Positions 1,047 to 20,138 of a stretch of DNA of 64,000 bases are shown here, one piece after another. The translations under genes and the position numbers were made by a program. The stretch is from Antennarius striatus (taxonomy: Eukaryota; Chordata; Actinopteri; Lophiiformes; Antennariidae), in contig NC_090784.1 in the NCBI RefSeq assembly GCF_040054535.1, forward strand, positions 8,082,501 to 8,146,500, read 5' to 3'. Numbering within the stretch: the first letter of the stretch is position 1; the number at the start of each line of letters is the position of its first letter. Under the pieces are notes generated by a model. It searched no databases. It was not told where the DNA came from and was given only the letters and a program-made list of their open reading frames with translations.

Positions 1047-4000
1047 TCAAACGATGGCAGTCTCTATGTGAAAGGCATGTGAGTAGGCAAAAGATGACGT
1101 GTGCTTTTGCAGAGGAAGGGATGGAGGGACGACTGGAGTGGTGGAAGGAGAAGAAGAAGTTGAGGAGGACGTGGAGGAACGACTCGCCCAACGCGAGGGG
1201 AGGCGGCGGTTGGCCGGACAGGCAGGACGGGAGAAGTTCTTCTGGATGGAGGAAGAGGAGACAGAGGACTTTTGGTTCTCCTGTGAAGAGACAAATGAAT
1301 TACCATTTAGGATTATCACACTGCTCCATCAACAATGAAATTCACACACTCAGATACTTTACATTTTGTCACGTGTCCCATCTGTAGTCTTCGTGATCCT
1401 AGGGGAAACAACAGGCATATTTCAAACCGGAATGCAAATCAATTAAAGCACGCTTATTTGGAAAAGGTGAGAGAAACGCTGAGTTTCTTATAATGTGCCT
1501 TTTGACTTTAAAGCGGTGTAATTTCAGGTTTCTCTTTTCCTTGGCCTGCTAAGGTCAGCTGATTTATTCTCTAATTACGACACAAAGACCAGAAAAGCAC
1601 TTCCACTATGAGGCCCAATGGAGGAACGGAAAGATGAAAGACCATCTGATGATAGCTGTAGATGCTATATTATCAGTTCCTTACGTTAGGAGCTGCTGAA
1701 CAATGTATGGCCCAGATGGCCTGAATATGATGGAGTTTTTGGCCTGCTTCTGTTTTGTAGCACATACCAGAAATAAATAACCTTTCCAATGGAGCTGCCC
1801 TTGGTTGGGAGCAACTAATGCTCAATGTTTTGGAATGGAATGAAATTAAATGAAATGTGCAAGTTCATGAGTGCAAATGACTTTGAAGATACAGTCTGAC
1901 TTAAACTCAAATCATTATTTTGTAACTTCTTTCTTTTGCAGTCAGAAAAGAGCCTGGCTGCATGGCAAACGGAGCCCTTAATGTTAATGTGTTCATCCAC
2001 GCTGTACATACCAGACTCTACCCACCTGCACCAGTTGTTGCGTCTCTCTTACACACAGGGAACTGTTGCTGCTCAGCTGTAATTGTGCCATCGTGAGAGT
2101 GGGAGGTGAAGGTTGACGTTCCATATCCAAAATATCCACATCTGCAAAGGTCTCTTCTTGTCCGACACTAAGATTGGGACTTGTGGACACCTTGTCATGT
2201 TGACTCTGGTTCTGCTGAGCCCAGGCTGCAGTCTCATAATTCTTCAGAATCCTTTCCAACGCCCCGTAGTTGGACCTGGATCCCTCGGGACGTGGGTACG
2301 CAGCCAGAGTGAGGGGCTTCCAGGGATGGTCGTTCATTATTCGCGGCACAGGTCTGGAGAAGTCAGACAGTGAGCGAGGACCAGAAACATACTTCAGCTG
2401 TGACTTGTGCCCCGGTTGGGTGGTCTGTCTTTGTTTCTCCTCAGTAGACAGCTGTTGGAGTGAGACGTCATCTTTAGCAGATTGAGGTTTTACTTCACAG
2501 GGATTTTCATTCTTGGAGCTGGAAACGATCTCATTCTGACCTGGCTCAGAAAAGACAGCAACAGCGGTCACTCCGTGTTCTGTTTTCCTATAAGGACCCT
2601 CTGTTGTTTGAACTTTTTGCTTGACCTCAGAATGGTGTGCAGGACTCAGAGAGGCTGTGGTTGTCGGCTCGGTAAGTTCAGTCTGTGGCTGGTCAAATAA
2701 CATGTTGATTCTGACCTCTTGACCTTCAGGATCACATCTCATTCGCCTTTGTTGGACCTCTTGAATTATGGAATCTGAGTTGGAGAAAGATAATATGCTT
2801 TCAGACTGAACATTCATGACGCTGGTGGTGCCATCAGTACTGTGTGATTGTAATGTCGACTCTCTGGGAGGTGAAACTTCATCTGTTGCTGAGACGACTG
2901 ACTGGCAACCCACAGAGCAGGCATCTGCGACTGTACCCATCTCAGCCTGAAACAAAGTTCTGTTGAACTCAGCTGTTTTTTGTTCCAGAGTTATGTTTCT
3001 TTTGGAGCCCAGGTGCTTGTTGCTGGCAGACGTTCTTTCAAGAGAGGAAAAGAGCAAATCTGCAGGTAATTCTTTGACAACCGGCAGCAGTTGAAGGTCT
3101 TTTAATTCCCTAGCAGTAGGGCAGTAGTCTGAGTGCAAGTTCTTGGAAGCAGTCAATATGTTGACCTCAGAGAAGCTTTTTTGGACGGTCCCGAGTGTAG
3201 ACAACTTGTTACTGAACTTGCTTGCATCACAGGACCAGCGGTTGTGGCAGCAGCCAATGTTGCATTTAGAGTTAGTGGGTGCAGAACACGATGCTACGAC
3301 ACCGTCTATTAAAACCTTTCCTTCGTTTTCCTGTAACATGGCCCCAAACTTCCTGACAATAGACGGGCTGCTGCACTTTCTGTCTATCACAACACAAGGA
3401 CTATGGCACTTCCTGACTGTCATCCTAGGAGACTCTCCGATGTGAAGCTCTGTGTCTGTATGGGTGGGGGTGTTCTGATTCCTGGAGGAGACACGGGGAG
3501 GGATGGGTGGAGCGGTTGTGTCAATCTCAGAGAGTAATCCAGGGGTTGTCTTTGTTTCTCTGTCTGGATTAGCCATATTTACTTGTGGGGAATTGCTCAG
3601 CACGCTGATGGACTTCCACGTGTTATCTGGTGACGAGGTGATCCAGTTTTCCTTCTCCAAAGCCTGAAGGTCATGGTACAGCTGGCTGAGGTCGCAGGGG
3701 GATTCATGAACTTCCAGTTGAATTTTATCGTGGCCAAACTGCATTTTGCTCTCCTCAGGTAGGGAGAAGGATGCAGATTGAGTTCTGAGGGAAAAACAAT
3801 ACATAACATATGTTCATATACAGTGTAATTATATATAGAACTCATAGTGCAACCAGGTAAAAGAGACGTGAAAGTCACTGTTCAATTGTTACACACACAA
3901 GCATGGCAATGACATCGTACACTATAGCATCAAGAATCACAACCACAGCGATTACCATAGTCCAGTGTTGGCACCAAGATCTAAACGTAACAGAGGGGAT

Positions 4001-18200: not shown

Positions 18201-20138
18201 TTGCCCATCCTTACTTCCTTTTCTTTTCAATGAGAGCTGCAGGAAACAGTAGTTACACCATCAGCTTCATCAGCATCACTCACTGCTTTCTTTCTAAAGG
18301 CAGTGACATCATCTGAAGTTATAGAACACCGAAGGCCCATTAATGAAAAAAACAAGGCTCTTTAAAGTCACCCTCAAGAACATTTCTGGTAAAACATATC
18401 AAATGAAATCACGGTGTTCTCAGCACAGTGTGGATTTTATTGTTCGGAGGTAATAACACCCCGAAAAAGAACATGAGTTATTCTGTTATATTATCAGACT
18501 TAGATCCTGTTAGCCATAGAGTAGGGGTATTGCTCCACTAATATTCCATTCAGTCCAGACACTCTGATTAAACTATGTATCATGAACATTACAGTTTCAT
18601 TTGAAAGCATCAGTGAGTGAACCTTCACCGGCTCCAGAACACTGTGTACTGGATCACTCTGTTCATCTGCTTCTCAGAACTCTACAAGTCTCTACAAGGT
18701 GAGTCTCAGTCTGTCTTTACCTAACCCCAGATATAATCAGCACTGCATTTTCATAAGCACAGAAAAAGTCCTAACTAAAGAAGGTACCTAGACAATTGCT
18801 ATTATCCCTTCACCTCTTTGGCTCTCTCCAGTTCATTCTGCAGGGCCTGTTTGGTCACCTCCACCTCTATCAGTGCCTGCCTCAGTTTCTCATTCTCCTC
18901 CTCGGTCTTCATTCTCTTCTCCTCCACATTCTCCAGCTCGTGGTGCAAACGAACAGACACATCCTTCGCCACCTGGAAGAGGAAGCCAAAGGCATCAGAG
19001 AGGATCCGCTGTGAGTCGTGAACACGTTGTCATCTACATGCAGACGTACCTTCAGGTCCTGCTCCAGACTCCTGAGCAGCTCTCCATCCACCTGGCCGCT
19101 TTCTGCAAACCGGAGCCTCTTCCTCTCGGCCTTCTTCAGGCGGTACTGGAGGATCCGACAGTTCTTGTTGGCTCTCTCCAGCTCTCTGCGCATGTCCTGC
19201 AGCTGGCAGGCGTCCTCTTCGTAAAAGGTGTCTCTCATTTCACCCATTTCTGCACGCATCTCCTCGATTTCAGCCTGGAACCGAAAATGAAGGGATGCAA
19301 AATAAAGCATCAGGTCAGCAAGTTAATGCTGGAGCCAAGTGCATCCAGGTGCTACAATAGAGCATGATATAAATTATATCATATAAAATAATGATGAAAC
19401 TACCTTCAGGTAGTCGTTTTCATCCTCCAGCTTCTCTATTTCTTCCTGGAGGATATGGTCCGGCTGTGGATCCTTGCGCAGACTGTCGGGTTCGGGGGAC
19501 AACTCCGGCTCTGACGCGGGCGGTGATGTGGACTTCGTCTGCATTTTCGTCCCTTTCTTCCCCAAACTCTTATTCAAGTGAAACTGTATTAACTCGGATT
19601 GCAAGCATCCCTCCTTCCAAAACCCGGGGCCGCAGCCGACCGTCCCTTTGGAGCCCTTCTTGCCGCCGCTCGGAGCCGCCGCAGCCTCCGCGCTTTTCGG
19701 GTTTTTGCTCCTCAGTTTGGGGGATTTGGAAGCGCAAGGCTGATCGGAAACAACGCGGTTGGGATCCGCTCTGGAGGCATCAGCGGTGACGCGGGGGGAG
19801 TCCTCTGGTGTCTGGGATCCGCCTCTGTCTGTCCCCGCCGGCCTGCTCAGCGTCGGGCTTTCAGCACCGGCAGCCGGGACAGCAGCCGCGCCTCTGGCGG
19901 CGGACGCGCCTCCGGCCTGGCGCTCCTTACCGCTGGAGACGGGAGAATGACCCCGACTGCTTCTCCCTGATCCTCCTCCTCCTACTTGCTTTGAGGCGAT
20001 GGGCTTCGACGAGTTGCTGCCCTTCTGTGCAGCTTTAGATCCTCCGTCTTTCAGCCCGGCCGGAGACGATGACCGCGGCTGCTTGCGGCTGCTGTTGTCC
20101 GGCTGCCGCGTCGAGTCGGCGGGAGAGAGGTTCATCAT
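15235..20138 (-). CDS. soga3: SOGA3 orthologue, coiled-coil protein with C-terminal membrane anchor (10 coding exons, 852 aa)
   Basis: Coding exons: 20138-19404, 19274-19050, 18972-18814, 18236-18165, 17956-17637, 17432-17273, 16416-16347, 16220-15674, 15622-15463 and 15345-15235. Total is 2559 nt with consistent phases. Residues 1-172 are a Ser/Gly/basic disordered region. [14 protein letters not shown] (about 173-186) is a family signature. Long coiled coils follow ([58 protein letters not shown]), very close to human SOGA3. The final exon is only 111 nt and encodes a 36-residue hydrophobic tail beginning [20 protein letters not shown]. That predicts a tail-anchored membrane protein, unlike the long cytosolic MTCL1/MTCL2 paralogues. 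The start ATG has ACC before it, and an upstream non-coding exon is likely. The cellular role is unestablished; microtubule or autophagy links come from paralogues only. Confidence 0.95.
16620..17210. repeat. Interspersed-repeat patch with two related copies in a soga3 intron
   Basis: Two segments (about 16630-16800 and 17060-17200) share blocks such as AAAGCACTTTT, GCACTTCC and GATGC(C/T)GTCAGC, then a tail with CGCG-containing words. Between them, 16895-16950 resembles the common vertebrate repeat motif CCTCGTTCCTCGCTGTTAATG. It sits between coding exons 17432-17273 and 16416-16347. It is probably a decayed DNA transposon or composite; family not assigned. Confidence 0.55.
16655..16697. repeat. 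Perfect 18-bp stem with 7-base loop
   Basis: GAAGTGCACTGCGTTCCG at 16655-16672 is the exact reverse complement of 16680-16697. It lies in one copy of the repeat patch. The related copy at 17060-17160 lacks the perfect stem. Confidence 0.9.

Follow-up and report, generated by a model that had tools for sequence, protein, structure and literature searches.

The genes soga3 and kiaa0408 are neighbours on the minus strand of a 64,000-nucleotide stretch of the Antennarius striatus genome (C9:8082501-8146500, in the following referred to as the window). Their arrangement raises the question whether they are separate genes or the front and the back of a single gene of the kind represented by MTCL1 and MTCL2, also called SOGA2 and SOGA1. 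The labels C9, C19, C18 and C2 denote contigs of one 548-Mb assembly of this species, and the related genes on C2 and C18 are called MTCL-type here, a term that covers both MTCL1 and MTCL2. Based on the comparisons described below, the locus is probably an MTCL-type gene split in two, with a fission that would have followed an older alternative exon encoding a membrane tail. In the best reading of the data, this fission is complete in a duplicate on C19, while the pair on C9 may still be fusible.

The models of both genes were rebuilt by script and reproduced the exon borders given in a preliminary description of this DNA. soga3 (MTCL3) comprises 10 coding exons (20138-15235, minus strand) for 852 amino acids (aa), kiaa0408 comprises seven (11493-1047, minus strand) for 1127 aa, and all 15 introns of the two models follow the GT-AG rule. 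The exons, with borders as in the gene models, and two signals in the interval between the genes are as follows (nt, nucleotides):

19404..20138, minus strand: soga3 coding exon 1
19050..19274, minus strand: soga3 exon 2; C19 copy 84% identical over 76 aa
18814..18972, minus strand: soga3 exon 3; C19 copy 86% identical over 56 aa
18165..18236, minus strand: soga3 exon 4
17637..17956, minus strand: soga3 exon 5; PF11365 match at C9:8100169-8100450
17273..17432, minus strand: soga3 exon 6; PF11365 match at C9:8099767-8099865
16347..16416, minus strand: soga3 exon 7
15674..16220, minus strand: soga3 exon 8; the PF11365 match at C9:8098605-8098916 ends inside it
15463..15622, minus strand: soga3 exon 9, phase 0 at its end; its homologue is the exon C2:14267315-14267548
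15235..15345, minus strand: soga3 membrane-tail exon, 36 aa and stop
15009..15014, minus strand: AATAAA, candidate poly(A) signal 3' of the tail exon, the first of several in the interval
11941..11983, minus strand: candidate acceptor of a kiaa0408 5' exon, a stretch ending in an acceptor-like AG; 81% identical over 43 nt to C19 (E 0.003)
11104..11493, minus strand: kiaa0408 exon 1, taken to begin at the earliest in-frame ATG considered, with a second ATG at 11409; skipped in the fusion discussed below
10670..10837, minus strand: kiaa0408 exon 2, with 168 nt and phase 0 at both borders; an internal exon of the C2 gene and one of the C18 gene are its homologues
6381..6671, minus strand: kiaa0408 exon 3, bulk of PF14818 (SOGA 1/2-like coiled coil; gene model and Pfam)
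4175..4636, minus strand: kiaa0408 exon 4, end of PF14818 (gene model and Pfam)
4009..4088, minus strand: kiaa0408 exon 5
2026..3784, minus strand: kiaa0408 exon 6; part of it resembles C19 (32% over 174, E 2e-8)
1047..1280, minus strand: kiaa0408 exon 7 with stop; C19 50% identical over 50 aa

Two variants of these models were noted. At soga3 exon 5, two acceptor-like sites lie 39 nt apart (17995 and 17956), both in frame, giving 865 or 852 residues. Within kiaa0408 exon 3, an ATG at 6513-6515 (residue 239, where the PF14818 match starts) stands in the context gccATGg, near the protein start of kiaa0408b on C19, and a short kiaa0408 form beginning there is possible.

Are the two genes related to the two ends of an MTCL-type gene? 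Pfam searches assigned PF11365 (SOGA) to soga3 with 225 bits in three stretches, and PF14818 to kiaa0408 with 82 bits at residues 239-292. Genome-wide, PF11365 gave 11 matches at five loci (C9, C19, C18 and two on C2), and PF14818 marked three of them, on C9, on C19 and at the first C2 locus. For comparison, 150 kb were fetched from the SOGA regions. A genome-wide search with kiaa0408 exons 2-3 scored 18 candidates and gave six places with E not above 1, and all six lie within the PF11365-bearing loci of C9, C19, C18 and C2. The counterpart of exon 2 on C2 (C2:14259216-14259383, minus strand) reads SSAVSSTLADLKVALQDLSGELRQERQGSQELTQQFAKAKVSWEVERTELKSVIMQ and that on C18 (C18:4732326-4732493) reads FGENQQVLQALRALLEEFWDELQEEETRRCQLQESYPNDKATWEDKWAEMKCHIAQ; both encode 56 residues in 168 nt with phases 0/0. 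The C18 exon is 45% identical to kiaa0408 exon 2 (score 129) and the C2 exon 37% (score 97), and in neither case was the score reached by any of 5000 shuffles. As a control, the C2 and C18 exons were scored against 60 coil windows of soga3, with maxima of 40 and 42. When exon 2 was searched alone against Pfam, no SOGA family was reported and Striatin and DUF5667 appeared only below the cut-off. soga3 and kiaa0408 exons 2-3 had no match in a sequence search of the PDB, and no stray animal relatives turned up when soga3 exons 7-10 were compared with bacterial/archaeal and viral contigs.

The order of exons on C2 agrees with these assignments. A homologue of soga3 exon 9 (C2:14267315-14267548; score 50, 0/5000 shuffles; phase 0 at its end) is followed by a tail-like exon, middle coil exons, the exon 2 equivalent and a homologue of kiaa0408 exon 3 that is divided in two in this gene (score 166, 0/5000). 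C2 and C18 have in common a middle coil exon, placed behind the SOGA part and ahead of exon 2 (score 89, 0/5000). These data support the proposal that SOGA3 and KIAA0408 correspond to the front and the back of an MTCL-type gene. Exon 10837-10670 does resemble MTCL-type paralogues, so that the lack of such similarity, named in the preliminary description as a refuting observation, did not occur. In the C9 interval, the middle coil exon is best matched by the coil that closes kiaa0408 exon 1 (E 0.053), with a score reached by 2573 of 5000 shuffles for the C2 exon and 1857 of 5000 for the C18 exon. It was considered whether the old middle coil exon might have become the first exon of kiaa0408; this match, though the best placed, does not rise above shuffles against C2 or C18. 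Two further observations concern C2. Its second SOGA locus (C2:23706001-23726000) is diverged and without a PF14818 match, and an exon-2-like stretch there scores at shuffle level (3280/5000). Within the span of the C2 MTCL-type gene, the open reading frame list contains a broken long terminal repeat (LTR) retroelement, at reverse positions 31267-34218 of the fetched C2 stretch.

The front half ends in an exon of a different character. Mean hydropathy reaches 2.62 over 19 residues (821-839 of 852), and the five highest hydropathy windows of soga3, which overlap, all lie in or reach into the tail exon; this sequence evidence supports the membrane-anchored N-terminal half postulated earlier. In the second soga3 on C19 the tail peptide is identical over all 36 residues: 28 of 111 bases differ between the C9 and C19 tail exons, 23 of them at third codon positions, and none of the 37 codons is changed in meaning. 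Base counts for exon 9 are left aside here, because the C9-C19 alignment slips out of register at the beginning of that exon, where C19 has a different sequence.

A point beyond the preliminary description is the tail-like exon inside the C2 paralogue (C2:14265258-14265359), which comes after the soga3 exon 9 homologue and before the middle coil exons. It reads PLILLSILLFFLFSTLSFSLTKIFFLYILFFIL and then a stop codon, starting in phase 0 behind a pyrimidine-rich acceptor. The distance from proline to stop equals that of the soga3 tail (33 residues), and 13 of the 33 positions are identical. Because the region is CT-rich, the match was tested against chance by shuffling, and no dinucleotide-preserving DNA shuffle reached its score (0/3000 local, 0/300 for the whole interval). 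The match scores 64, compared with 31 for the next unrelated one among 3741 stop-anchored 33-mers in 428 kb-strands, and an extrapolated fit gives an expected count of 0.005 at score 64. In these tests the C9 tail served as query; the score of a tail profile containing the C2 tail itself was excluded as evidence. The first AATAAA lies approximately 500 nt downstream of the C2 exon, which is neutral evidence. The C2 exon is likely to be a real homologue of the soga3 tail, and the anchor exon appears to predate the split. The search for tail exons covered the SOGA loci, and tail-like exons elsewhere in the genome are possible.

On C19, the copies of soga3 and kiaa0408 are again adjacent. kiaa0408b starts at MAAIDLERGLEHGG in the equivalent of exon 3, with same-frame stops just upstream, and nothing like exon 2 above chance was found in the C19 intergenic region (best E 1.3 over 14 residues). 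As no exon 2 was found and stops lie in frame, an in-frame fusion at C19 looks excluded. Three short DNA matches connect the intergenic regions of C9 and C19; the best (43 nt at 81%, E 0.003) ends in the acceptor-like CTCTTACATCAG at C9 11941.

Can the two genes on C9 still be joined? The preliminary description had pointed out that soga3 exon 15622-15463 ends and kiaa0408 exon 10837-10670 starts in phase 0, and that skipping the soga3 tail exon and kiaa0408 exon 1 would give one MTCL-like protein of about 1.8 thousand residues. The borders and phases were reproduced by the gene models, and soga3 exons 1-9 together with kiaa0408 exons 2-7 form a single open frame of 5442 nt including the stop (1813 aa). 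Phase 0 is found at six of nine soga3 introns and five of six kiaa0408 introns, so that a random pair of borders agrees with a probability of 0.59. Owing to this, phase agreement is a weak argument, and the case therefore rests on homology. When kiaa0408 exon 1 is entered from the acceptor-like site at 11941/11940, a stop follows after 46 codons. A fusion retaining exon 1 from site 11940 was accordingly rejected, and on this route exon 1 must be skipped. A weaker phase-0 acceptor-like site lies within exon 1, before 11328, by which a fusion may keep part of this exon. Fusion on C9 by skipping two exons is possible and, if made, would be a minor form. As C9 lacks a significant match to the middle coil, the putative product would be shorter in the middle than an MTCL protein. 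The proposed open frame thus stands, and the description of its product as simply one MTCL-like protein does not, since the fusion would lack the middle coil that the C2 and C18 genes encode. The human SOGA3-KIAA0408 readthrough cited in support could not be confirmed, since neither its name nor KIAA0408 combined with readthrough had a match in the literature searched (gene databases lie outside this search). A review reports eight genes that are both hypomethylated and overexpressed in prostate cancer of the neuroendocrine type, KIAA0408 and SOGA3 being two of them (PMC10486655). Their joint overexpression fits a common control of neighbours and is no proof of a shared transcript.

Four accounts of the locus can be compared on this basis. 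The view of the pair as unrelated coiled-coil neighbours that resemble MTCL only through coil composition is taken as refuted and hardly deserves further weight. Coiled coils do yield weak spurious matches, such as Striatin, DUF5667 and TPR below the cut-off, but the exon 2 equivalents scored far higher against exon 2 (97 and 129) than against any soga3 coil window (at most 40 and 42), PF14818 lies above the cut-off in kiaa0408, on C19 and on C2, and every genome-wide match falls into a SOGA locus. It is unlikely that the locus regularly makes a full-length fusion beside the two halves, with the tail exon and kiaa0408 exon 1 skipped. The frame is open across 1813 residues, exon 2 is still coding and agrees with its paralogues in length and phases, and its acceptor is already used by kiaa0408 itself according to the gene model. 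However, two exons would have to be skipped jointly over approximately 4.6 kb with candidate poly(A) signals in between, exon 1 read from 11940 runs into a stop, the C19 duplicate appears incapable of fusion, the phases may well agree by chance, and the readthrough name was not met with in the literature searched.

Improbable to a still greater degree, yet not as remote as an accidental likeness, is an ancestral state with separate genes, from which the MTCL1/MTCL2-type genes arose by fusion, leaving the tail exon as a relic. A tail-like exon with its own stop, as on C2, is what might be left by a fusion across an old 3' end, and such an exon was not found in C18. On the other hand, the fusion must then predate the C2-C18 duplication, because the middle coil exon is shared by both genes. 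The fission of an MTCL-type gene along an alternative tail exon is, in our opinion, the most probable explanation.

Several results weigh against the fission account. The C2 tail match is of low identity (13/33 only), its score is reached by 16 of 200,000 residue shuffles, and it was not reported by bias-corrected phmmer with the C9 tail as query. No tail exon was found in C18 (60 kb) or at the second C2 locus (20 kb). Nothing at C9 matches the middle coil exon significantly. On C18, neither PF14818 nor exon 3 was matched in the 60 kb fetched or in the genome-wide searches; judged from its exon 2 equivalent, the C18 gene runs past the split point, and the term unsplit is best supported for C2 alone. 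That the C2 and C18 loci are single genes is read from exon order and strand, and the view of the split state as derived is based on paralogues of one genome.

If fission took place, it might have proceeded as follows. The ancestral gene would have possessed an alternative terminal exon in its middle, the use of which gave a membrane-anchored front half. In the soga3 branch this exon would have turned into the regular last exon of the front gene, and the exons behind it would have acquired a promoter of their own, giving rise to kiaa0408. A separate kiaa0408 promoter probably exists, which fits the CpG-rich windows at 11401-11800 (observed/expected 0.89) and 12401-12800 (0.80), compared with 0.46 for the whole window; this signal is unspecific, as the exon bodies at 1001-1400 and 15801-16400 are likewise CpG-rich. 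Normally, the locus would then yield SOGA3 as a membrane-anchored protein and, separately, KIAA0408 as a soluble coiled-coil protein. By analogy with MTCL1 and MTCL2, the half on the membrane side would be uncoupled from the other by the split.

A more general form of the fission account can be put forward tentatively, at somewhat less than even chances. The ancestral vertebrate MTCL gene would have chosen between an internal membrane-tail exon with a stop and the full-length C-terminal half, and fission would have fixed this choice as two genes, reversibly on C9 and completely on C19. The C2 gene would have kept the switch and would make a membrane-anchored short form. If an MTCL1/2-type gene such as that on C2 indeed has a membrane tail as an alternative end, RNA processing could set the membrane attachment of a microtubule-crosslinking family, and in SOGA3 the membrane form of a switch common to the family would have become fixed. 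The locus would then be a worked case in which a gene divided at an alternative terminal exon that it already had, and a single genome would show this fission both finished and unfinished in two duplicates.

Other features of the window were recorded as well. Upstream of soga3, a Kelch-like gene with BTB, BACK and Kelch matches lies at 48284-50474 on the minus strand. An exon at 37728-38270 has an F-box-like match and presumably belongs to a relative of FBXO25/32. At 56146-58356 (minus strand), matches of the integrase zinc-binding, Tf2-1 SH3-like, chromo and reverse-transcriptase RNase H types mark the remains of a Ty3/gypsy-type LTR retroelement. A search of the whole window against Rfam gave 0 matches.

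How does the locus compare with known systems? The SOGA3/MTCL3 and KIAA0408 genes of other vertebrates form the same neighbouring pair, as in the human genome. Human KIAA0408 presumably starts in the exon that is preceded here by two 5' coding exons. The likeness to MTCL1 and MTCL2 lies in PF11365 in soga3, PF14818 in kiaa0408, and the length and phase of exon 2, which are equal in the fish paralogues. A member of this family would be expected to carry both domains in one uninterrupted gene; in the C9 models they are divided by the stop in the tail exon and a separate first exon of kiaa0408. On C9 the two parts are thus modelled as separate genes, the front one with a membrane tail, and the middle coil was not found. 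A further difference is that kiaa0408 exons 4-7 matched nothing in the C2 region up to an E of 1, the result that bears on the C-terminal microtubule-binding domain of the family, while the kiaa0408 C-terminus has a C19 counterpart. SOGA3 also bears the name MTCL3 (PMC12880232). MTCL1 and MTCL2 are reported to act on Golgi-associated microtubules (PMC5546597, PMC9782006); according to the published description, MTCL1 dimerizes in parallel and has a microtubule-binding domain at each end (PMC5546597), and MTCL2 is described as directed to the Golgi by its N-terminal coil and to microtubules by its C-terminal domain (PMC9782006). With tail-anchored membrane proteins, soga3 shares the hydrophobic stretch at the C-terminal end, and differs in that its tail is a separate exon. 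The anchoring of soga3 could hence be set by splicing or by the choice of the 3' end.

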